NCBI GenBank assembly: GCA_943704525.1
Contig: CALSCQ010002632.1
Coordinates: 32,501 to 52,500, forward strand
Origin: Pigoraptor vietnamica
Lineage: Eukaryota > Opisthokonta > Filasterea
Direction: 5' to 3'
DNA: 20,000 nt
Shown here: in pieces, positions 5,095 to 19,015 of the stretch
Position numbering within the stretch: the stretch's first letter is position 1
How the letters are laid out: the number at the start of each line of letters is the position of its first letter
The notes under the pieces: model-generated
What the model saw: only the letters and a program-made list of their open reading frames with translations
The model's database searches: none
Told to the model about the DNA's origin: nothing
Program-made: the position numbers and the translations under genes

Positions 5095-8000
5095 ATGGCG
5101 CTGCACGGGGGTTTGCGCGGCCATGGCGCTGTTTCGCTGCTCCTTCTGCTTGCGGCGGCGGCTGCGCCCGCCCTGTCGCAGAACGTCGCCATTGTTTCCG
5201 GTGAGCGGCCATCTCACCGCCTTTGCGCAGTGCGTCGTCGTTGACTGAGCCACTCGCCGGGCTCACCCTCCTCTTCTCTTCCACGCATTCTAGGGTTCGT
5301 GACGGAGTTCAATACGCTGCCGACGGTCGGCTGTCGGCGCGCAATGGCCGAGTTTTACGGGCCTGGCAACGACGGCCGCTGCCAGTTCATTCTGACCAAC
5401 CCAAGTCCCGTCAACATGGCGTACGTCCGGAGCGTCGTTGCAGGTGGGGCTCTCGCGTGCGAGTGCACGAAGGCATCGCGGGGCGAGTTCTCGTTTGTCG
5501 ACTCCTGCCGTGACTTCCTCCATGTGCCTTGCACGCAAACACCTAATGTGTTAGGACAGCAATAGGTGGCAATAGCGGTCACAATCGCCATGTCTCGCAA
5601 TGTGCAAAAAGTGTGTGTTTGAGCGCCGGTGCATGTGCATTGTTGAGGTGACACCCTCTGCTGCGTCTACACAGATCCGCAGTACGCCCACGTCGTCTTC
5701 ATCGGCTTCTACTTTGAGACTGCGACGTACGCCATGGCCCTGGAGTTCCGCAACAAGACATTCACCATGATTGACGTCGGCTTGGACGAAAGCCAGCCAC
5801 AGATAGCGTTCCTCAAGCAGAACGTGCAGGGCGTCGTGTTTGCGGAGGTACATCATGTCATTAAGCAAGGGGTGTGCACGCTCACGTCGTCTCGCAGCCG
5901 TACACCAACGACACACGTGTGCTCCCGCAGCCCCCTAAATGCGCCCACTGCATGAGCCCACTGCATGAGCCCCATTGCATGAACCCCACTGCATGAACGT
6001 GCGCTAATGCGCGCGCTTGCGTGCTCCCACCCCCACCCTCTCGTCCATCCCTGACACGCACTCACACACCGACAGGACCAGTCCGGCTTCATGGCGGGCG
6101 TCGTCGCGGGCCTCATCACCAGCAGCTTCCGCGTGGGCATCATCAGCGGGACGCCCTTTGCTCCCCTCGTGCGCTTCGTCAACGGCTACTTTGGCGGCGC
6201 GCGTTACGTGTGCCCCTCGTGCCAGGTCTTCAGGGTGTACGTCAACTCGTTCGACAACGCGACGCTCGGAATTGCAGCCGCGGACTGTGAGTGGCGAGCC
6301 CGTGTCCATTGTGCGTGCGTGGACACTGCGCCTGCCCCACTGCGCTAATTGCTTGTGTGTCAGCGCTCATCCAGAGCGGCGTCGACGTCATCTTTGGGGC
6401 GGGCGGTTCGATGGGCAGCGCGGGCATTCTTTACGCTTCGGCGCGCGGCTTGTACGTCATCGGCGTCGACGCCAACGAGGCGCTGTCGACGTTTGCGGGC
6501 GCACCGGACATTCAGCTGTCTAAGGTGATAACGTCCGCCGAGAAGCGCACGGACACGGCGGCGTACCTCTCGATCATCGACAGGCTGCGCGGCGTGTTCT
6601 CCGGCGGCACTCGCGTGGTGGACGCGTCGGTCGGAGGACTCGCGCTCTCCCCCTGTCCGAACGCGCTCGCGTGCAGCGTGCTGTCCGGACTCGTGCCTGT
6701 TACCACCTCGACGTCTTCGTCGTGCGCCAAGACGGTGCTCGTTGACCGGCAAACGCGGATCAACTCGATCTTCGAGAGCATCAAGGCCCGTGCGCTCAAG
6801 ACGGGCACAACCGCGGACGGCTACTTTACGACCGTTTCTGACCAAGGTTTGTGCTGGGGAGGGCTTCGTGTGTGCGTGGTCATCCCAGTTGCTAATGCGC
6901 CGGCTTACGCGCGTACGCGACTGAGCAGGCGCTGACATCGACGAGTGGGCGAGCGTCAGCCTCTTTGGGCCCGCGATGCCTGCCACGAAGGGCCACTCTG
7001 CCACGCTTGCGCGCCACAACAACATTCTCGTGTTTGGAGGCGAAGTCAACGGAAACCCTTCCTCCGCGTGCCACGTGCTCCAGTTCGGTGTGTGACCGCC
7101 AAAAATTGCCACACGGTGTGTTCCAGCCTGACTGTGAATGCGGCCTCGCAGACACGCAGGAGTGGGCCGTGTGCAATGCGACGGGCGCGCCATCGCCGCG
7201 GTCACTGCACTCGGCCGTCGCCCACGGCAACCAGGTGGTTGTGTTTGGGGGGCGGTCGGGGCTCGTCATACTCAGCGACGTCATTTCGTACGACATGGGT
7301 GAGTCTCGCGTGCACACTCGGTAGCATGAGTGCATAGCAAGGTGGCTTCCGACTTAGGCCTCTTTGCCGCGCAGCCACTTCCACGTGGACGACGCAGCCC
7401 ACCAACATTGCACTACGCCGCTGCGAGCACGCCGCCGCCGTGCAGGGCAACCGCATGTTCGTCTTTGGCGGATCGTCCGGTGTTGTGTCCGACGAACTCT
7501 GGTGAGTGACAATCGGCTCGACTGCTTCCAGCCGCCTCCACTTCAGCTGATGCGCTAACGCTGGAATGCGCACAGGTCGCTCGACCTCCTGTCCTACACG
7601 TGGACGCAGGTGGTGACGACGGGTGCAATCCCCCGCGGCACACGGGGCGGCGCTCTCGTAGGGGCCGCCAACGGCACGGCGCTCTATTTCTACGGTGGCC
7701 TCTTTGCATCCGGGGCGTACTCGTCCTCGCTGTACGCTCTAGACACAGGTGTGTGCGTGGCCATTTCACGTGTGTGTGTGTATGTGTGTGTATGTGTGTG
7801 CGTGTGTGTGTGCGTCTGTGTTTGCGTTTGTGTGCACGTGGCTGTGTGTGCGCGTGTGCGACTGCATGTGTGTTGTGGGTGTCAGCGTGCATACGTGCGG
7901 CACTTTTTCCGCCCTGTGCCAACGTCAGCAATTCGCAGCGAGCGCGGCGTGGACGGCGCTGTCCCCAAGCGACCCCTTTGGTGTCAAGCCGGTGGGCGTG

Positions 8001-10498
8001 GCGTTCTTCGGCGCCGCCTTCTATGGCCAGGTCATGGCCGTGCTCGGCGGCGTCACGGCGGACGGCTCGGCGGCGGACACGTACTACTACGCTACCGGCG
8101 CGAACGAGTGGCGTCGGGGCCGGCCGCTACCTTCACCCACCAGCGCGCTTGCCGCGGTCGCCTTTCGGCAGACGGACGACCCTGCGGGCTGCGTGTACAC
8201 GCCGGCCTCGTACCTGAGCCTGTGCGTCATGCGGAATCGGCTGGCCATCGTGCGCTTTGGCGGCCTCGAGGTGTCCGGGACGGCCGAGGCGTCGACGTCG
8301 TCGGACGTGGACATCCTCTACGTGGGCGACGCGCCGCTCCCTGGCGAGCCCGAGGTGGTTGCCGTGACGAGTTCGAGCAAGGTTTGGGTCGTGGCCGTGG
8401 CCGTGGCGGTCCCTGTCGGAACGGTGTGCGTCGCGCTGCTTCTCGCGCTCTTCCTCGTGAACAAGAAGCGGCGCGAGATGCAGGGGAAGGCGCTCAACTG
8501 GATTGTGGACCCGAGCGAGATTGTCATTGGCGCGGAGATTGGGGCGGTGGGTTGTGTAGCTGTGTGTGGTGGCAGTGCTGTTCGCCCGTGTTGGTGGCGT
8601 CTTCTGATCAGGCCCAATGCGCTCCCTTTTGGTCGACGCAGGGTCGCTTTGGCACCGTGCACGAGGCGAAATTCCGGTGGGTGCGCACGCGGCGCCCTGT
8701 TGATTCGCCGTGTTTGCCTTGGTGAACTTGTCTGTGGATGCGCGTATCTGTTCGTCTGGATTTCTCGTTGAAAAATTGACGTCCGGGCTTCATGTTATAC
8801 CCGCAGTGGCACGCGCGTGGCGATCAAGCTGCTGCGCGAAAAGGAAGAGCAGGACGAGCAGGCCCGCTCGCTCGTCAATACGCTCACGCAGGGAAAGTGC
8901 GTGGTCTCCGCCTTCGCCATCGCGTGCCATCTCATTGTCTCACACTCCCCTTGCGCAGCTCGTCAAAGGCGGGGTGGACGGGCGGGAGCGTGTCGATGGG
9001 TCGCGCGATTTCGTCCATCATGAAGCGGGTGGGCCTGACATTCACTGCAAGTCCGCTGCAGGGTGACGCGTGCACTGTCGCGTGCTGTTCCGTTGACTCA
9101 CAACCATGCCATACTGCTTCCGCCCACTCGTTCTCTCCGCCGCGCAGGGACGCTCGCAGTCGCGAATGTCCGAATTCGAGCGCGCGCGTGCACTTCTCAT
9201 TCTGGAGATCGAGACAATGTGGGCAGTGGGCTGTGCGCTGCCTGCGTTGGTGCAAGCGATCGTGCAATCTGATTGTCGAAGGGGCGTTCAATCATCCTCT
9301 AATGTCTCTCAAAACAAGCAAAAAGCAGGCTTACGCTCTCGCCGTCCTCCCCCGCCTCCCCCGCAGGGTCACGCTCCGCCACCCAAATATTGTCCAGATG
9401 CTTGGCGCATCAGTCGACAAGCGCTGCCCCTGCATCGTGCTTGAGCTCATGTCGGCGTCCCTCGACAGCCTGTTTGACAAGGGCCCCGATATCTACCCCT
9501 GGTCCACCCGCCTGGCGTACGCGAGGGTACGCGTGCCTCTCACTTGTGCGGCGCTCGTTCTTCGCCCCTTGTTGCCAATCGATGCCTGCCTGAGTCAGCG
9601 GCCGCCCCGTCTTTCAGCCACTTCCCCTCGGCTGACCCCCCGTCGCTCGCAGGACATCGCCCTCGGGATGACGTATCTGCACTCCGCCAAGCCGCCCGTG
9701 CTGCACCGCGACCTCAAGAGCATGAACGTCCTCATCGATTATGCTTCGAACCGCGTTAAGGTCAGCCCACGCCCGACTCGTTATTGTTTGAGGACACTCG
9801 TCGCGCGTGGGTGGTGAAAGCACTGCTGGTGGCATATGGTCCTGCCTTTCGAGTGGCATCTTTCGTCGCCTGCGTGGCTGACTTCGCAAATCGTCCGCAG
9901 GTGAGCGATTTCGGACTCGCGCAGTTTAAGGTGCTCAAGCCCACCTCGAGCGCAATGGCGGCACGGCCGGTCGGTTCCTACCTGTGGATGGCGCCGGTGA
10001 GTGTGCGCACACTGACGCTTTGTTGTCTGTCTAGTGACCAAATCTATCGGCGCGTGCAGGAAATTTTCAGCGGAGAACAGTACACGGAGGCGAGCGATGT
10101 CTACTCGTATGGTGGGCACCTTATAGTCTGGACGAGTCCGCGTGCTAGGCCTAATCTCGATTGCATCACGCAGGCGTCATCATGTGTGAGCTGTCCACGT
10201 GGACGCGCCCCTATGCGGAGCAGCGGGGAGAGCTCATCCTCGAAATCCTCATGGTCCAGGTGGGCGAGTGGGTGGGCGAGTGTCCCTGTGCGTGCGCGAT
10301 GTATTTCCCTGTGTGCCGTGGTGCATATTCTTAGGGACTACTTCGCAGGTGACAAGCGGCTCCATGCGCCCCAAAATCGCCGAGGGCACGCCGGACGCCT
10401 TCGCGAGCCTGGCCAAGCAGTGCATGGACAACGCCCCCGCAGTGCGCCCCACATTCGCCGACATTGGCGAGGCACTCGCGAACATTGCGGCCAAGTAA
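5095..10498 (+). CDS. Receptor kinase: Bmp/PnrA-like domain, six-blade Kelch, TM helix, TKL kinase
   Basis: Proposed exons: 5095-5200, 5294-5443, 5675-5847, 6076-6286, 6364-6846, 6929-7087, 7152-7298, 7375-7501, 7576-7748, 7939-8546, 8642-8676, 8807-8896, 8959-9028, 9148-9218, 9367-9526, 9653-9760, 9901-9996, 10060-10111, 10174-10259, 10349-10498. They join in frame to about 1084 residues ending at TAA. Parts in order: signal peptide (1-29, Leu/Ala core, ending PALSQ); Bmp-type solute-binding fold (about 30-370), with the family-like motif GFMAGVVAGLI, then VIFGAGGSMG and YVIGVDAN; six Kelch blades, each with a hydrophobic-GG core (about 380-700); one TM helix (about 725-752) followed by KKRR; kinase domain (about 768-1080). 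Catalytic parts are intact: glycine loop IGAGRFGTV, VAIK Lys798, HRDLKSMN (about 939-946), DFG (960-962), WMAPE, RPTF. HRDLKSxN favours the TKL group. Family knowledge: Bmp/PnrA domains bind nucleosides or similar small ligands outside the cell. Inference: a surface sensor that phosphorylates cytosolic targets. Less certain: exon 13, the exon 14 acceptor (9147 or 9159), and the start (in-frame ATG at 5029 would add 22 residues). Confidence 0.88.
5944..5997 (+). repeat. Four-copy 13-14 bp tandem repeat in kinase intron 3
   Basis: Four near-identical tandem copies of a unit like cccactgcatgag occur at 5944-5956, 5957-5969, 5970-5983 and 5984-5997. Copies 3 and 4 carry an extra C, and copy 3 has T for C in the middle. 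The array lies wholly in the intron 5848-6075, 78 bp upstream of the acceptor. It looks like a young minisatellite; no function can be read from it. Confidence 0.85.
7768..7878 (+). repeat. TG-rich microsatellite in kinase intron 9
   Basis: An imperfect (TG)n tract is interrupted by TATG, CGTC and TTTG units. It occupies most of the intron 7749-7938, whose donor is itself GTGTGTGCG. The intron's acceptor is at 7937-7938. The tract is on the sense strand, so the pre-mRNA is UG-rich here. Confidence 0.85.
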
Positions 10499-10630
10499 CA
10501 CCAATGACCCTTTGACTCCGCACCACCCCTCCCATTCTCTCGGCTTCCCCACCGATGCGAATTTCCCCTGTTCCCTTTGGCGCAATACAACACGGCGAAA
10601 TGACAACCACGACAACGTTTATGAAGCCAA

Positions 10631-13189
10631 CTACATCTCCATGGCGACGCTGTCGATGCCGCCGGGGCACCCCACCGAGAAGTCGAGGAGGATGATGCGC
10701 ACGCCCTCCTTGGCGCCCTCCGACGACCTCATGTACGGGTTGTGCGGGTACCGCTCGAGAGGGCCCCGCACGGCGCAGACAAGTTTGGCATCGTTGTACT
10801 GCGGCGTGAGCACGGTAAATTCAAATCCACGCCAAAAGGCGCAGTGAGCCGCACACGAGACGCGGCATGACGCACAGGCGGCACACGTATTGCGCTACGC
10901 ACCTGCACACGCCACACTGCACTGGCCTCCGGCTGCGCCTGCGCCCCGGCGTCCTCCGGCGCGACGGTGAGCAGCGGATTGCGGATGAGCTGGCCGGTGC
11001 GCGTGTCCCAGAGGCGCACGGTGCCGTCGTCCGAACCGCTGATGATCTTGTCCTCGTCAAACTGCACGCACGTCACAGAGCTGTGGTGGCCCATGAGCGT
11101 GTTGAGGCACTCGCCCGTGCGGACGTCCCACACGCGAATCGTCTCGTCCGCATTGCCCGACACGAGAATATTGCCGCGGAGGTGCATGAGGCCGACAAGC
11201 GACCGATGCCCTGCGCGTTCAGACGATTCGGACCAATATGAGTCCGTGCGCGCGCGCGCAGGGCCTTGCGGGCCTTGACACGTGACAGAGACAAACAACG
11301 TGCGGCACGCGAGACCAACCCATGAGGGTGCGCAGAAGCGCGCCGGTGGAGGCGCTCCACATGCGCACGGTCGAGTCCATCGATCCGCTCGCAATCAGGT
11401 CGCCCTGGAACTGCAGCGAGTAGATCTTGGCAGTGTGACCCTCGAGGTTGTGCCGCAGCGTCCCCTTGCTGGCGTCCCACACCTTCACGCAAGAGAGAGC
11501 AGCTTCAGTGTGTGTGTGCAGTGCGCGTGTGCATGCATCGGCGGGACAATGTTCGGGGAGGCGCCAGCACACACCGGACCGCACATGGCCGAGCATCGTC
11601 ACTGGTCAAGTTGTCGGAGCAAGTGACAAAGACAACATTAGGAGAGGAGACGCGTGCGTACCTTGAGCGTGTTGTCATACGATCCGCTGACGATGGTGTC
11701 CCCGCTGAATGCGACGCAGCGGACAGCCGCAATGTGGCCCTTGAGAACGAAGAGGCAGTGTCCGCCGTCCTGCGCAGGCACCCCGACTCAATTCACCTTG
11801 CACGAACCCACGCCTATGCACAAACGCAGCCACGCACACAAACCCACATACACACTTACATACATACATACATACACACACGTACATACACACATAAACA
11901 CATACACAACCGCACGCGCGCGCACACAAAAAACACACACCACACACACACACATGTACAGCGACCAACACGCAAGAATTGCCAAAAAAATCGCACCTTC
12001 TCGCTGATGGACCATACGCGGAGTGTCGAGTCGCGGGAACCGCTCACAACAATGTTGCCCTGAACATCGAGGCAGCGCACAGTCGACGTGTGCCCCATCA
12101 ACGTATAGCGGCACTCGCCCGTCGCGACGTCCCACACCTGGCGGCAGGGTGTGCGTCAGTATAACGCACCAAAGAGCAGCCGGGACGACGCCAGCGAACA
12201 TTGGTGGCAGTGCGCACGCACCTTGAGCGTCTTGTCGGTCGATCCGCTCACGATGGTGTGCCCGGCAAAGTGGCAGCACCACACGCCGCCCTTGTGCCCC
12301 GTGTACGTGCGGATGCACTCGCCCGTGATCGACGACCAGAGCATGAGCGTGCAGTCGTCAGAGCCGCTCAACACGAGGTCGTCGTGCAGCTGCAGGCACG
12401 TGATCACGTGGTCCGTGTGGCCGATCAGGCTGCGCGAGACAAAGCTACGCAGAAAACATTGCTTCGGTTGAGAAGCAATGGGCGGCACCAGCACACAAGC
12501 ACGTTGGCCCACCCGAGTTGCTGCAACACTCAGTCCCGAGCACTGAACTGCGCCCAAATGCACCCACCGCCCCTCCTGCCAGTTGAGGCGCAGGCGGTGC
12601 TTGGCGCTGAACACGTCCTTCCAGCGGACGCCCTCGCGCTGCAGCGACTCCCTCGACCGGTATGAGCGCAGCACGGCGTCGCTCAGGCGGTGCCGCTCGC
12701 AAACTTTCTTCCACAGCCTGCATATTGACACCGTGAGCATACAACGCCACACAGAAAGCAAAGAGCACAAAGGAGCGATGCAGCCAGTAGGGCACGTGAC
12801 GCGGCACCCACACATTGTCGTTGGCTAGGCGGTACCATGCGCGCGAAACCTGCGCAGCAGCGCATATGCTGCGATAGTCGAGAAAACCGAGAAGGAAGAT
12901 GGAGAGCTCCTGGGGCAGCATCGAGACAAAGTCGCGCTGAAGCAGCGGCACTACAAGTGAATGTAGATGACTGCGCGAGTGTTAGAGAATAACAGCCCAC
13001 AGCACGCGCCACTTTGAACCCGCAAACCCACCGAAGCTGCTTGCTCGCACATCTCGGCACAACGCCGACAATTGCTGCGCGCTTATCGTCGTCCGTAAAG
13101 CGCTCAAACTCGCGGAGCCACTCGGCAACGGCGGGCGACGGCATTGGCGCGTCGCCCGCACTGGGACTCGCAGGCGCAAACATGTCCAT
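10631..13189 (-). CDS. FBXW7: FBXW7/Cdc4-like F-box and WD40 protein (SCF substrate receptor)
   Basis: Nine exons on the minus strand: 13189-13032, 12970-12812, 12717-12568, 12444-12222, 12137-11997, 11769-11662, 11482-11320, 11210-10903, 10798-10631. They join in frame to 525 residues. All eight introns are GT-AG (61-227 bp). Order of parts: a dimerisation-like helix (about 22-60, WLREFERFTDDDK, then VVPLLQRDF); the F-box (about 68-115, LPQELSIFLLGFLDY, then DNVLWKKVC); a linker with LNWQEG; and a WD40 propeller with GHTDHVITCLQ, GHTSTVRC, SGSRDSTLRVW, GHIAAVRC and later blades, ending LVCAV and ILLDFS. This matches FBXW7/Cdc4/Sel-10 closely. The family recruits phosphodegron substrates to Skp1-Cul1 ubiquitin ligases. 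The three phosphate-binding arginines of FBXW7 (human 465, 479, 505) correspond to Arg251, Arg265 and Arg294 here, so degron recognition should be kept. It is shorter than the human protein because it lacks the long disordered N-terminus. An in-frame TGA upstream of 13189 supports the start. The gene is convergent with the kinase gene (132 bp gap). Confidence 0.92.
11832..11958 (+). repeat. CA/CATA-rich microsatellite in FBXW7-like intron 5
   Basis: A mixed (CA)n and (CATA)n tract fills the middle of the minus-strand intron 11996-11770; the TACA/CATA tetranucleotide part is near 11857-11875. On the sense strand of the gene it is TG/TATG-rich, as in the kinase intron 9 tract. Confidence 0.8.
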
Positions 13190-13685
13190 CTCCACACCCG
13201 CACCGCCGCAGAGCGCAGCGGCGTTTCAATTCTCTCGTCAAGCGTGCTCGTGCGGTGTGCTGCGTGTGTGCGGTTATCGTTTGTTCGCAGGCGTGTGTGT
13301 GGTGTGGGTTCACACCTTCCACTGTTTCGTCGGGGAATGTGACGCACTCACCCGGCGAATTTATATTAGAAAACGGCGAATAAATTTGAAAATCGGGGGG
13401 TCGGGCGCAATTCAGTCAATTCCATCCGCCGAGATCTCGCTTGCGGTCACGTGTCTTGGAACGGCCACACGCGCACCACAACCGAACGACGACAAACGAG
13501 TGCTTCCGTTAACTGTCCCTCCATCGCGTTGTAGTGAGTCGCGCGGGGATCTCCTTAGTCTTTTATTGGCACTTTTGGCTGGTTTTCCTGCACTTTTTTC
13601 CTTCGGACCACTCGCAAAGAGGTGCTTTGTCTCACCTATTTCGTGGGCTCGACCGTGTTCGATCCCTCACTGACGGGCGTGTTGC
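13190..13685. promoter_or_regulatory. Divergent intergenic region between FBXW7-like and TPR genes
   Basis: This stretch of 496 bp separates two head-to-head start codons. A sharp AT-rich patch at about 13357-13395 contains tttatatt (TATA-like on both strands), about 170 bp from the FBXW7-like start. A palindromic CACGTG E-box lies at 13448-13453. The 100 bp before the TPR start are T-rich (about 13550-13630). No RNA gene is seen. The promoter role is inferred from position; individual elements are only sequence matches. Confidence 0.5.
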
Positions 13686-15415
13686 ATGGCGGCGGCGCCC
13701 GCGCTCACAGCGGCGCCGGCGCCGGCCGACGTCTATGGGCCGGCGCCCGGGGCCGACGTACCTCGCAATGCAGCCGCAAAGCGTCTCGCCTCTCAGACGC
13801 GTGCGCTGATCGCAGCGGGGCGTTTGGACGACGCACTGCGCATGTGCAACATAGCGGTGGACACAGGGCGCGAGGCAACGGAGGACGAGACCGCACCCAC
13901 GCGGCATGCGCTGGACGCGGACGCCGCGGCCGTGCTCCTCTGCGACTGTGCGTCGGCGATGCTCACCGCGGGCCGTGTGTCCGACGCCGCCGCCTGCATT
14001 CGAAAGGCCCTCGCGCTGCAGCCGACGGCGCACGCTCGGTCGCGAGCATGCGTGCTGCTGGACTCGATCACGTGGTCTGCGGACCCGCGGGGCGCGCAGG
14101 CGCTTGGCATGCGAGAGCTGGCGAGTCGGCGCGCGGACGCACACGCGGCCAAGGAGGAGGGAAACCGCCTGTACAAAGTGGGGCGCCTGGACGAGGCCAT
14201 CGAGTGGTACTCGTACGCGATAGACATTGACGGACAGGACGTCACCTTCTACACGAACCGGGCCGCCGCTTATCTCGAGCGCGGCATGTTCTATGCGTCG
14301 GTCGTCGACTGCCGAAAGGCGCTCCGACTCGCCGAGATGCGCTACCCGGGGACGTCGCCCGCGGTACTTGCCAAGGCGCACGCGCGGCTTGCGACGGGCC
14401 TTGCGCGCATGGGGCGCACTGCGGACGCCGTGGCCTCGTACCGCGCGTCGCTGGCCGTGTCCGACAGCGAAGAGGTGCGGCGGAGGATGAACGCGACCAT
14501 GACCGCGACAGCGCTGACACCGTGGAGCGCCGAGGGCGGTGCTGGCGACGAGTTGCCACCGGACGCCGTGATGCGCGCCACGGCTGCAATGGACGGTCAG
14601 GAGGAGCGGGCGATGGCGGACGCGCTCTTTAAGGTACTGTCTGATGCCACTGAGTGGTTGCACATGCACGTGTGTCCCAACTGACATTGCTTGAGTGACT
14701 CTGAGATTGTCTTGGCTGACGCGTGCGGTGCTATTCAACCGCACAGGAGGGCAAGTACCGCGAGGCCATTCGGTACTACGACATGGCGTTGCGACGGGAC
14801 ATGCACGGCCCCATTGCGGACCGCCACCTCATGCACGTGTGTCGCGCGCTCGCTTTCTCTGCCGTCAGCCGGCGCGGGGACGCAATGGACGCGTGCGACG
14901 CCGCCATCGCAGCCGATCCGGGGCAGCCGGAGGGGTATCTTGTGAAGAGTGATCTGCTCGCGGCGAGCAAGCCGGGTGGCGGCCGCGCGGCTCTGCAGGT
15001 GCTTCTCGGCGTGTATTCCGTCTGGCCGACGGAGCTCACGGAGCACCTTGCGCGGAGGATGCGGTCGGCGCTGGTCACGTGCCTGCAGCAGGACCGCGAG
15101 CTGATGCAGACGGACACGCCCCAGGCACACGCGCGGCTGGCCCGCGACGTCGCCCACGCCCGTGCCCTGCGGCAGATTAAGGAGGTGCAGACGGCCGCGC
15201 GCGATCCGCGCATTCTGGCGCTTGCGATTCGTCTCGTGCGGTCGGACGCGGTGGCGGTGATCGAGTCGCTTGGGGATGACATGTGCGAGATTATTGCGCT
15301 GCTGTGCCGGCTGTGCCTCGCCAAGTACATCAGCCTGTTCCCTACGCGCGCGGACAACCGCGTCCTCTTCGTCGACGGCATCATGACATGGCGGCTGCAA
15401 ACGACCAACTTGTAG
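13686..15415 (+). CDS. TPR-repeat protein, co-chaperone-like
   Basis: Two exons, 13686-14633 and 14747-15415, are joined by a phase-0 GT-AG intron of 113 bp to give 538 residues. The splice restores a TPR helix (ADALFK then EGKYREAIRYYDMAL). An N-terminal Ala/Pro-rich segment (1-25) is followed by TPR-type helical pairs. The clearest are 151-184 (AKEEGNRLYKVGRLDEAIEWYSYAI), about 188-221 (YTNRAAAYLERGMFYASVVDC), about 230-262 and about 309-342. The layout of three consecutive TPRs resembles the clamp domains of Hop/STI1, TTC and DNAJC7 proteins that hold Hsp70/Hsp90 tails. No J domain, STI1 DP domain or catalytic domain is present. The last ~100 residues (from about 440) form a separate helical region I do not recognise, ending MTWRLQTTNL. 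No signal peptide or TM segment is seen, so a cytosolic adaptor is likely. The chaperone link is inferred from repeat type alone. Confidence 0.85.
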
Positions 15416-15673
15416 CTCACGCGTGCGGCCTGGCGATGTCACGCACGGATCCCTTGTATTTATCCCGCTCAATGAATTTGCGTCGTTCGTCAGTCGTCGT
15501 TTCACTGTCATCAGCCCTAGGGCTGCTCCGTGTGCAAGGTGTTACATCCAGGGTAGCGTCCAGGAGTGTGACAGGCACGTGACGTGCGTGTGGGCGTGGT
15601 ATGACCATCAACTTGCCAGCATTTGAGCGACGTTTTACAGTGTGAAAGAGCGCATTCTCAGTAGCAAACAGAC
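15416..15673 (+). promoter_or_regulatory. Upstream region of the HADH gene
   Basis: This gap of 258 bp lies between the TPR stop and the HADH start. It holds CACGTG at 15576-15581, directly followed by a CRE-like TGACGTG (15580-15586). The 50 bp before the ATG are relatively A/T-rich. It must contain the TPR 3' UTR and the HADH promoter. Element calls are by sequence match only. Confidence 0.35.
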
Positions 15674-16509
15674 ATGGCGTCCCTCGTCCATCTTGCCCGC
15701 GTCGCTGCCCGCACGCCCGCACGCGCCTTCAGCACGTCTGGCGCTGCATCGGCCCCCATCAAGCACGTGACCGTGTTCGGCGGCGGCCTCATGGGCGCCG
15801 GCATCGTGCAGGTGGCGGCCACGTCCGGCCACAACGTCACGCTTGTCGATGTCAACGACGCGGCCATCCAGCGCGGCAAGTCGCAGCTGGAGGGGGACCT
15901 CAAGCGCGCGGCGAAGAAGGCGTCGGCGGGCGACGAGGCGAAGGCAGCGGTGTTTGTCAAGGACGCGCTCGGCCGCATCTCGTTCAGCACGGACGGGGAG
16001 AAGGCCGTGCAGCAGACGGACCTTGTCGTGGAGGCCATTGTGGAGAACCTCGAGATCAAGCGGCAGCTGTGGGCCAAGCTTGACAAAGCCGCACCCAAGC
16101 ACACCATCTTCGCGTCGAACACGTCGTCCCTTCCCATCCAGGCGATGGCGTCGGCGACCACCCGCGAGGACAGGTGCGTGCGCTGCAGCTTAGTGACAGT
16201 ATTAGGGTGGCGCGTATGTATCCGTGCGTGTGTTTTGCGATTACTGCTTCAGCCGTTGGCTTACTGCGGCCGTGCGCAGGTTCGGCGGGCTCCACTTCTT
16301 CAACCCTGTGCCCGTGATGCAGCTTGTGGAGGTCATTCGTGCGGAGAAGACGAGCGAAAGCACCTTCAACTCGCTCATGGCTTTTGGGACGGCCGTCGGG
16401 AAGAAGTCGGTCGCGTGCAAGGACACGCCAGGGTTCATCGTGAACAGGTGCTTAGCCCCCTTTGTGATGCACACACCCTGCGGACCGCCGTTGTCAAATG
16501 TCGCAGCCA

Positions 16510-16562
<53 letters not shown>

Positions 16563-16896
16563 ACACACACACACACACACAACGACACGTTGGCTCGTCG
16601 ACAGATTGACGTGCACGCTGACGACAAACCCGTCCACGCTTACTCACACAACACTCGCACTCACACACACACACTCACGCACAGGCTGCTTGTGCCGTAC
16701 ATGATGGAGGCCATTCGCATGTTTGAGCGTGGCGATGCGTCGAAGGAGGACATTGATGCCGGGATGAAGTTGGGCGCCGGTTATCCGATGGGTCCCTTCG
16801 AGCTCCTCGATTACGTGGGTCACTCAGACACATACACACACACAGAGTACACACACTCCATACACCCCACACTCACACACACACTCACACACACAC

Positions 16897-16934
<38 letters not shown>

Positions 16935-17177
16935 GCACACACACAAGCACACATCCCGCAGTACACAGGCACGCACACACGCATACTGAATGGCTCAATA
17001 CTTTCCGTGCGTGTGTAGGTTGGTCTTGACACGTGCAAGTTCATCGTCGACGGGTGGGCGCGCGCGTACCCTAACGAGCCGGCCTTCAAGCCGTCGCCGC
17101 TCCTCTCGAAGCTTGTCTCGGAGGGCAAGTTTGGGCGCAAGTCGGGCGAGGGCTTTTACAAGTACGCCAAGAAGTAG
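15674..17177 (+). CDS. HADH: Mitochondrial short-chain 3-hydroxyacyl-CoA dehydrogenase
   Basis: Four exons (15674-16173, 16280-16447, 16685-16814, 17019-17177) encode 318 residues, close to the ~314 of animal HADH. The enzyme oxidises (S)-3-hydroxyacyl-CoA to 3-ketoacyl-CoA with NAD+, the third step of beta-oxidation. Residues 1-24 form a typical mitochondrial presequence (Arg/Ala/Ser, no acids). The Rossmann motif GGGLMGAGI starts at 36, and Asp59 follows strand 2 as the NAD-ribose ligand. SNTSS is at 148-152. The catalytic His172 (HFFNPVPVM) and Glu184 (LVEV) have the family spacing of 12. The C-terminal dimerisation domain includes [27 protein letters not shown] and [10 protein letters not shown]. 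The introns join codons exactly within these motifs (NR/LL and DY/VGLD). No peroxisomal C-terminal signal is seen. Introns 2 and 3 are loaded with CA repeats. Next gene downstream is convergent (110 bp). Confidence 0.95.
16513..16582 (+). repeat. (CA)n microsatellite in HADH intron 2
   Basis: A near-perfect CA run of about 70 bp has one CC interruption at 16560-16562. It lies in the intron 16448-16684. A second, looser CA-rich stretch (about 16641-16684) runs into the acceptor, which ends cacgcacag. Confidence 0.95.
16826..16980 (+). repeat. CA-rich microsatellite in HADH intron 3
   Basis: This is an imperfect (CA)n tract with ACTC, AGTA and AAGC interruptions, purest at about 16885-16933. 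It makes up nearly all of the intron 16815-17018. The sense strand is CA here, unlike the TG orientation in the kinase and WOPR genes. Confidence 0.92.
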
Positions 17178-17287: not shown

Positions 17288-18532
17288 TTAGAGGTATATT
17301 TTTCGCAAGTCAGGTGGCGCCGTGATCGTGTTGCACTGCGGACACAACCGCTTGACGCCGAGCGTCTGCAACCAGCACCGCTCGCAGTGCACGTGCCAGC
17401 ACAGCACAGACACGAGCGGCTGCGCGTATCGCTCCATGCAGATCAGGCACCGCGGCGTCCCTGCGCTGCTCGCATTCGACGCCGCCTCCAGCTCTCGTAT
17501 GCGCGACTTGAGGCTCGCAATGACCACCGCAGCGCCCGTCCCAGCGACACCCGCGTCGCCCTCCCCCGTCCCCAGCACTGCGCCCGACGGTGGCACGTGA
17601 CCGTACTCGGCCTCTTCGTCCAACCTCACTATCGAATCCTCGCCGTACTGCGCCTCGCCAAATTGCGCCGTCGCGTCGTCGTCCACGTCAATGTCGGCGT
17701 CCTCGTCGCTGTCGACGCGCGCGCGTTTCGCACCGCTTCTCCCGGCCGCGCTCCCGCTGCTGTGCACGCCGGGCGCCGCATTCGCAAACCCCCCGACAAC
17801 CATGGTCGACGCTCGCACGCGCGTCTGTCCCGCCCACGAATACACCTCGTACTGCTCCGAGTCCTCCCCCGCCGCGTGCTGACTGCCCGCCACTGGCTCC
17901 CCGCGCGGCGCACCCCCCGCAGCCAAGCACCCGTCCACATGCGCATTAATGTCCGCCTCGTTACCTCGCACAATGTCGCCGCAAATTGGACATCGCGGAA
18001 TAATCTCGCATTCCATAGCCTCGGCTTCTGCAGACGCCGCTGCCGAGCGACGTCGCCGTCCCCCACGCCCCTCGAGCCGTTCCCGCCGGCCCTTCCGCGC
18101 GCGCCGCAGCACCTCCAAACAACGCAACGAAGCTGCCGACTGCGCACCCGCCGAGCCATCTGCGAGCGCCATTTCCGCGTCAAAGTCCTCGTCTGGTCGG
18201 TCGCGTGGTCGCAGGCCGTTGCTGCGCAGTTGGATGGCCTGCGAGTGCACGAGCCGCCGTGCGTTGAGCGCTGCGCCCCTTTTCCCGCTGGCCGCCTGCG
18301 GCAAATCGCGCTCAGCATCGCTCTTTGCGCGCGCAACCGCCGCCACTGGGTCGCGGAGTCTTGCCAATTCGAGCGCATAGTGGGCCTCATACTCGCCCGG
18401 CGGCAGGGGCGCACCGCACAGCGGACACACAACCACGGCGCCCCTTTGCAACCCCGCAGACGGCGCGCGGCGTGGTGCCGGTCCATCCGCGGCAGACCGC
18501 GACGGCAGCGGCGCTATTGGGAGCACGTCCAT
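17288..18532 (-). CDS. RNF220: RNF220-like RING-type E3 ubiquitin ligase
   Basis: A single-exon frame encodes 414 residues from an ATG at 18532 in good context (gccATGG). At the C-terminus is a C3HC4 RING: Cys362, Cys365, Cys378, His380, Cys383, Cys386, Cys397, Cys400. The stretch CWHVHCERCWLQTLG, then LCPQCNTITAPPDL and the final RKIYL, is the RNF220 hallmark. It is preceded by a short helix (LKSRIRELEAAS, about 341-352), like the coiled coil before the RNF220 RING. Two upstream zinc motifs are visible: CPLC...H at 36-51, and a C2HC finger at 181-202 (CPICGDIV, then HVDGCL). Basic clusters (GRRRRS about 158-163 and KRAR 269-272) suggest nuclear entry; an Asp-rich patch follows at about 275-286. 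RNF220 proteins ubiquitinate nuclear and signalling substrates in animals. The substrate here is unknown. It is shorter than the ~566-residue human protein. No intron is needed, unlike most neighbours. Confidence 0.92.
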   Translation of the reverse strand: MDVLPIAPLPSRSAADGPAPRRAPSAGLQRGAVVVCPLCGAPLPPGEYEAHYALELARLRDPVAAVARAKSDAERDLPQAASGKRGAALNARRLVHSQAIQLRSNGLRPRDRPDEDFDAEMALADGSAGAQSAASLRCLEVLRRARKGRRERLEGRGGRRRRSAAASAEAEAMECEIIPRCPICGDIVRGNEADINAHVDGCLAAGGAPRGEPVAGSQHAAGEDSEQYEVYSWAGQTRVRASTMVVGGFANAAPGVHSSGSAAGRSGAKRARVDSDEDADIDVDDDATAQFGEAQYGEDSIVRLDEEAEYGHVPPSGAVLGTGEGDAGVAGTGAAVVIASLKSRIRELEAASNASSAGTPRCLICMERYAQPLVSVLCWHVHCERCWLQTLGVKRLCPQCNTITAPPDLRKIYL

Positions 18533-19015
18533 GGCTGCGTGAGTGGACTTGCTGCGGGATCTGCCTCACGTAGCGAGAAGAAGAGGGACCCCAGCCCAAG
18601 AAAGCGCCAAACGGTCACTCGTTGGCACGTGGGGAAATTTCCGAGATCTCGTCAGCGATTAACTCTATTTTTTGGCAATGCCATTTTTTTTAGGATGCCG
18701 TGTTGAAAGTAGTGTGCGGAAAAGCAGCGCCAACCACGCGAACCCACAACAAACACGCGCACCCACGCCTGCTTGCGCGCACGCGTGTTCCTCACCGCGC
18801 GGACGGTTTTGCGCCCCTGCGATCGACCGACACACGCAGCGCCCCGCAATGAGCGGCTCATGACCGACTGAAACGACCGCGTTGTGATTGGGCGCGTTCG
18901 CCCCAGTGGGCGGCTGCTTTCGTGTCGTACTCTCTGGGGGGAATCGAGTGCTGGCGGGGTGGTGTGCGTGCGTGTGCGGCGTCGTCGACTGCGCTGAGGC
19001 GCATCCGCCGGGCTG
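18533..19015. promoter_or_regulatory. Divergent intergenic region between RNF220-like and WOPR genes
   Basis: This stretch of 483 bp lies between head-to-head start codons. It holds CACGTG at 18626-18631, an AT-rich block at about 18657-18700 with the inverted repeat TGGCA-A-TGCCA (18674-18684), and an inverted CCAAT (gattgg) near 18885-18890. Reverse-strand open frames across it are Pro-rich by-products of G-rich sequence. No RNA gene is seen. Promoter function is inferred from position. Confidence 0.5.

Follow-up and report, generated by a model that had tools for sequence, protein, structure and literature searches.

The receptor kinase gene and its parts

The window, the stretch of 20,000 nucleotides of Pigoraptor vietnamica analysed here, is part of contig C1095 in the 32.5-Mb assembly of 1395 contigs that we searched. 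According to an exon model built from the sequence, positions 5095-10498 of its forward strand hold a single gene of 20 exons, with an unbroken joined frame of 3255 nt encoding 1084 amino acids. Exons 1 to 7 lie at 5095-5200, 5294-5443, 5675-5847, 6076-6286, 6364-6846, 6929-7087 and 7152-7298, exons 8 to 14 at 7375-7501, 7576-7748, 7939-8546, 8642-8676, 8807-8896, 8959-9028 and 9148-9218, and exons 15 to 20 at 9367-9526, 9653-9760, 9901-9996, 10060-10111, 10174-10259 and 10349-10498. GT-AG borders were present at all 19 introns. Our own spliced aligner, fed the window protein, gave back identical exons, which is a program check and no independent proof. By eye, the remaining window contains a presumed F-box/WD40-like gene (10629-13225, reverse strand), a TPR-like gene (13674-15415, forward), a 3-hydroxyacyl-CoA dehydrogenase-like gene (15665-17155, forward) and a RING gene with a C-terminus resembling RNF220 (17288-18565, reverse), names that we assume from the look of the sequences. 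Long GT/CA-rich simple repeats were also noticed in introns of the gene (for instance at 7749-7860) and at 16450-16950.

The encoded protein is a predicted single-pass receptor kinase, whose parts all lie on the forward strand. Hydropathy predicts a signal peptide at about residues 1-28 (5095-5178; cleavage site estimated by eye). It is followed by a Bmp/PnrA-type solute-binding domain at about residues 28-375, encoded by exons 1-5 (5176-6846) and recognised both by PF02608 and by substrate-binding proteins of the PDB. The PF02608 match scored 94.9 bits against a curated cut-off of 24.1 (6e-27) and covered residues 85-296 and positions 57-255 of the 301 in the profile, and a profile made from the paralogs extended to the N-terminal SFN motif of Lbp. 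A six-blade Kelch propeller comes next, at about residues 376-715 in exons 6-10 (6929-8354), matched by PF24681 (1.5e-50), PF01344 and PF13418, with the Gly-Gly motifs of its six blades at residues 409, 458, 506, 557, 611 and 682. The only strong hydrophobic stretch outside the signal peptide is a single membrane helix at about residues 725-750 (8382-8459; best 19-residue mean 2.75), directly followed by the basic sequence NKKRR at 751.

The kinase domain occupies about residues 776-1084 (8535-10495; PF07714, 1.5e-46) and retains its catalytic motifs, namely K798, E864, HRDLKSMN at 939 (D941), DFG at 960 (D960) and APE at 988. The closest solved kinases were CTR1 (1e-39), MLK4 (2e-34), MAP3K12 (DLK) and TAK1, with the tyrosine kinase ITK next (1e-30), and the domain is therefore classed as TKL-like. 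The motif HRDLKxxN is a mark of Ser/Thr-type kinases, the type predicted here by HRDLKSMN. An insert of about 60 residues separates K798 from E864, and two paralogs, on contigs C422 and C1349, have inserts at the same place. The initial annotation had proposed this start, end and domain order, including the basic stop after the helix and a catalytically complete kinase. Exon model, Pfam, hydropathy and motifs confirmed the proposal, as did the Bmp profile match, whose absence the annotation had named as a reason to abandon it.

Since the exons were joined by splice-site choice and homology rather than from transcripts, the Bmp-Kelch part and the kinase could in principle be two adjacent genes wrongly fused by the model. 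However, exon 10 (7939-8546) spans the late Kelch region, the membrane helix and the start of the kinase within one open exon, and the full order is repeated, with mostly common introns, in the paralogs of C422 (79% identity over residues 1-1081) and C1349 (49% over residues 9-1082). A third paralog, on C1200, shows 92% identity up to residue 797, as far as the G-loop, shortly before the sequence reads N. In C422, all 19 window introns have a same-phase counterpart, 17 at the same residue and two shifted by 1-2, in a model that includes one 2-base exon taken as an artefact. Within one residue and in the same phase were 15 of 17 introns in C1349 and 10 of 11 in C1200. We rejected the artefact, which we consider very improbable, on the strength of exon 10 and the paralogs, and these same two observations make it unlikely that ectodomain and kinase reside on two separate mRNAs. 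The order of parts has thus persisted despite divergence down to 49% identity.

Every part of the gene is under purifying selection. Compared with C422 (1053 codons), dN/dS was 0.15 for the Bmp part, 0.14 for Kelch, 0.19 for the membrane part and 0.24 for the kinase, and compared with C1200 (748 codons, excluding the kinase) it was 0.10, 0.14 and 0.23 for the first three, respectively.

Two families of Bmp genes in the genome

Genome-wide, PF02608 gave 28 matches on 18 contigs, on which we modelled 19 Bmp genes, 13 belonging to a Bmp-Kelch and six to a Bmp-EGF family. The Bmp-Kelch set, which includes cut-off genes of the same Bmp type, consists of the window gene (C1095) and those of C1200, C422, C1349, C54, C1143, C712, C126, C507, C1015, C446, C542 and C533. 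Five of the 13 end in a TKL kinase (C1095, C422, C1349, C712 and C542) and five are cut off, four at contig ends and C1200 at its N stretch. The kinases of two further members, C1015 and C446, carry the tyrosine-kinase motif HRDLAARN. The C446 protein matched Bmp (2.7e-32), Kelch (3.3e-55) and kinase (1.6e-74) models in Pfam, and among solved structures its kinase was nearest to an EGFR entry, FGFRs, EphB4 and Tie2. In C507, the Bmp-Kelch ectodomain is followed by a region of many hydrophobic stretches in place of the kinase, suggestive of a polytopic protein; this tail had no Pfam match.

An ectodomain tree was built from 12 of the 13 Bmp-Kelch genes (C533 left out), five of which have an intracellular part that is cut off or of another kind. 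A branch (100/100) set the tyrosine-kinase members C1015 and C446 apart from the rest, and a single exchange of the intracellular part is thus enough to explain the split between TKL and tyrosine kinases. Labels were few in this comparison, and equally good clustering arose in 54 of 500 shuffles. The change of kinase likely came about by exchange of the exons for membrane helix and kinase. As the genome contains SH2 domains (27 matches), readers of phosphotyrosine may be available to the tyrosine-kinase members.

Cassettes related to the membrane-plus-tyrosine-kinase part of C446 were also seen on C788 (78% identity across the initial 165 residues and lower beyond them) and C327 (51%), joined there to other upstream parts. 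Neither the Bmp nor the Kelch part of the Bmp-Kelch family had a match in the analysed stretches around these two kinases, and upstream of the C327 kinase there are long GG-rich repeats within one open frame of 1378 aa.

The second family comprises C555, two genes of C1193 (C1193a and C1193b), C1008, C325 and C619. By reading, an EGF-like motif, a single membrane helix and a complete or partial TKL-like kinase are present in five of the six, of which C555 and C1193b are truncated by the contig border; in C619, the sequence stops inside the Bmp part. Two of the kinases, those of C1008 and C325, look like pseudokinases, as their catalytic motifs read as degenerate and lack HRD. For C1193a, Pfam matched Bmp (5.8e-30), an EGF model (3.1e-5) and a kinase (6.9e-54). 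Relative to the initial annotation, which dealt with the window gene, this survey adds the gene's membership in a set of at least 19 Bmp genes, the same type of ectodomain on tyrosine kinases and, as set out below, the use of two bacterial Bmp subfamilies.

Another flytrap module, ANF_receptor (PF01094), gave 58 exon-level matches in the genome, and on contigs C314, C902, C121 and C91 the same strand carried a match to the window kinase some 2 to 3 kb downstream, so that TKL receptors with an ANF-type flytrap may be frequent in this genome as well. Bmp domains on class C GPCRs were looked for and not seen, the ten contigs with 7tm_3 matches and the 18 with Bmp matches showing no overlap.

Ligand pocket and bacterial relatives of the Bmp domains

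A Bmp profile made from eight of the 13 Bmp-Kelch genes found 15 PDB sequences. The top nine were Lbp (7x0r), four entries titled "Lipoprotein" (6yab among them), which we take to be pneumococcal PnrA, 4pev, TmpC, BmpD and BmpA. PMC13325309 compares Lbp, PnrA, TmpC, BmpD and BmpA as homologs with a common nucleoside pocket made of F27, F151, F176, V224, D225 and K242, with the ribose contacted by D98, K242 and D225. It reports that thymidine binding of BmpA was no longer measurable in F27A or F176A. In an alignment to BmpD (6shu), F151, F176, D225 and K242 corresponded to F177 (6175-6177), F202 (6250-6252), D249 (6468-6470) and K274 (6543-6545) of the window protein; the chain index of 6shu differed from the published numbering by a constant, hand-counted offset of 36 at all four positions. 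F27 corresponded to F41 (5308-5310), followed by N42 (5311-5313), via the paralog profile and again by hand-counting, and position 98 to D119 (5773-5775), which is weak evidence because BmpD itself has Glu there. The aromatic sandwich (F41 and F202) and the ribose contacts (D119, D249 and K274) are thus present in the window protein.

These positions are also largely kept across the family. The equivalents of F176, D225 and K242 were found in all 13 Bmp-Kelch genes, and those of F151 and D98 in 12 of 13 each (Leu in C507, and Arg in C533, where the model is poor). At the F27 equivalent, Phe is present in nine of the 11 rows that cover this part, the exceptions being C507 (Tyr) and C1143 (Leu). 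The N28 equivalent was kept in only four of the 12 rows with a letter there, and seven Cys (49, 65, 189, 192, 311, 317 and 334) in every row with a letter. The stacking frame for the base and the ribose contacts are thus kept, and the loop at the base edge is short, variable and diverged. For this reason, the class of ligand may be guessed while the choice of base cannot be read.

Conservation of this kind bears on whether the domain still binds a ligand at all. Kelch propellers often bind proteins or glycans, and the propeller could carry the ligand while the Bmp part has become a structural or protein-binding module, for example a face for pairing or for a co-receptor. Yet the Bmp part and Kelch have similarly low dN/dS values, 0.15 and 0.14 in the comparison with C422 and 0.10 and 0.14 in that with C1200, and F202, D249 and K274 are among the 26 Bmp columns that are invariant in at least 11 rows, so that we regard a loss of binding as quite improbable.

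The Bmp-EGF family resembles other bacterial proteins. Its relatives include the purine-base binders 3s99 of Brucella (4e-29) and AtzT (2e-28), both outside the subfamily of the window gene (AtzT 1e-7 versus Lbp 2e-18). The positions of the AtzT pocket residues Glu165 and Trp194 are kept in C1193a, which has His/Asp at those of Asn218/Asn220, as does 3s99 (hand-counted). In PMC6834077, AtzT is described as binding guanine, and 3s99 with adenine modelled.

In order to place both families, bacterial relatives were collected by scanning the GTDB species genomes with the window's own family, which yielded at least 463 relatives, of which 80 loci were kept. The bacterial proteins were taken from 35 of these 80 loci (34 gave one) and from 30 Bmp loci in 16 of the same genomes (26 gave one). 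The sample was picked for likeness to the window family, so that Chloroflexota are over-represented, and the Pigoraptor receptors are the only eukaryotic sequences in the trees. A quick tree contained 80 rows (12 of the 13 Bmp-Kelch genes, five of the six Bmp-EGF genes and the 63 bacterial proteins), and a careful tree 57 rows, with C533, C507, C1200 and C619 left out and 42 of the 63 bacterial proteins retained after removal of long or near-identical rows.

In both trees, the Bmp-Kelch genes formed one clade inside PnrA-type bacterial proteins, mostly from Chloroflexota (support 100 in the quick tree, 100/100 in the careful tree), and the Bmp-EGF genes a separate clade inside the AtzT type (100 and 100/99). 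Which bacterial proteins lay next to the Bmp-Kelch clade depended on the tree: L042, L049, L052, L054 and L140 in the quick tree (support 85), and L132 and L040, both Chloroflexota, in the careful tree (98/98). The latter placement is matched by the CPxC pair formed by C189 and C192 of the window protein, which was also found in L132, L040 and the near-copy L043, three of the 63 bacterial proteins. By eye, the Bmp domain of L040 and L132 is followed in the same open frame by a part resembling peptide-type binding proteins, and L073, likewise from Chloroflexota, has two Bmp domains in tandem.

Forcing both receptor families into one clade in the careful tree cost 128.7 log-likelihood units (p-AU 8e-76), for a group named after the quick tree had been seen and in a tree in which five of the 57 rows (two of them Bmp-EGF) are flagged for odd letter make-up. 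A single origin of all Bmp receptors was rejected on this test, and the result favours two separate bacterial sources for the two families. The nesting suggests that the transfer ran from bacteria to the eukaryote. Tentatively, and with less than even confidence, we propose that this lineage captured bacterial purine-binding proteins twice, once of a Chloroflexota-like PnrA type and once of the AtzT type, and made of them two families of extracellular purine receptor kinases, in one of which the same nucleoside sensor would drive either TKL kinases or true tyrosine kinases, the latter being a nucleoside-sensing receptor tyrosine kinase.

Proposed function and comparison with known systems

On balance, we consider it probable that the window gene encodes a receptor kinase whose PnrA-type flytrap senses an extracellular nucleoside or a near relative, with coupling by Kelch and a Ser/Thr output by the TKL kinase. 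The outermost domain would close like a Venus flytrap on a small extracellular ligand, most likely a nucleoside or near relative, and the propeller would relay the closure to the arrangement of a dimer at the membrane helix, bringing two kinases into an active pair. The cytoplasmic kinase, once switched on, would phosphorylate Ser/Thr residues. The steps that follow binding are modelled on how receptor kinases work in general. A likely use would be the detection of nucleosides from lysing bacteria or other cells. The initial annotation had suggested a bacterial-type Bmp fold on the extracellular side of a eukaryotic TKL kinase, which held true, and the sensing of a nucleoside-like molecule. 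With the aromatic sandwich and the ribose-contact residues retained, such sensing stands as the best guess. The Bmp-EGF family, which groups with the AtzT type and appears to be separately derived, is a further point for a nucleoside or purine. The diverged base loop and the weak evidence of D119 count against a nucleoside, and some conserved residues may partly be residues of the fold.

The strongest argument against assuming a nucleoside comes from Dictyostelium, where a BMP domain is recorded for GrlL (PMC1885808). According to PMC10755179, GrlL is Far1, for which binding of folic acid is reported, and this folate receptor illustrates that eukaryotic receptors may use a Bmp domain for ligands other than nucleosides. 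A receptor of the same design as ours could likewise recognise folate, another pterin or a sugar of the bacterial surface and serve to find or engulf prey. PMC5969738 reports that fAR1 recognises LPS, and the base loop of the Bmp-Kelch family is short and variable, so that a larger ring system could fit. Folate has no ribose, however, and would not need the ribose-contact positions D249, K274 and D119, which are kept in nearly all rows. A ligand other than a nucleoside is unlikely in our judgement, and a nucleoside or near relative remains our preferred reading.

Our literature search, which mostly did not extend to subscription papers, returned no report of a Bmp/PnrA domain joined to a kinase or to Kelch, and thus none of the Bmp-kinase fusions in Acanthamoeba that the initial annotation mentions. 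Flytrap receptor kinases in animals and Bmp ectodomains in amoeba GPCRs are already described. If our reading is correct, the fusion of a bacterial nucleoside sensor with TKL and tyrosine kinases in one family would show a eukaryote making new small-molecule receptors from bacterial uptake proteins, and the window family would lend itself to testing this, as it comes with a predicted class of ligand and specified pocket residues.

The bacterial nucleoside-binding lipoproteins PnrA/TmpC, BmpA and BmpD share the domain family and most pocket residues with the window protein. They are substrate-binding proteins of ABC importers, whereas in the window protein the domain is fused outside a receptor kinase and has seven family-conserved Cys. 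The nearest known designs are the Dictyostelium Bmp GPCRs and the Venus kinase receptors (VKR) of invertebrates. As described in the available text of PMC1885808, most Dictyostelium family-3 (class C) GPCRs of the Grl group, including GrlJ and GrlL/fAR1, have a signal peptide and an extracellular Bmp domain, as the window protein does. Their output is seven-helix and G-protein-coupled, with no Kelch or kinase in that description, whereas the window protein has one membrane helix and a kinase, and 7tm_3 was absent among the 14 Pfam families listed for it; it thus does not belong to the class C GPCRs.

VKR come nearest in design. In the sections of PMC3703292 on which we draw, they likewise combine a bacterial-type extracellular flytrap, one membrane helix and an intracellular kinase with activation by small molecules, and a VKR-like architecture is noted in choanoflagellates (UTK12, RTKS). 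The modules differ, however, since VKR use an ANF_receptor-type module (PF01094) and a tyrosine kinase resembling that of the insulin receptor, with no mention of Kelch in those sections, whereas the window protein uses Bmp (PF02608), Kelch and a TKL kinase. PF01094 gave no Pfam match in the window protein up to an E-value of 0.1, which, together with the TKL-like kinase, places the window receptor beside VKR rather than among them.
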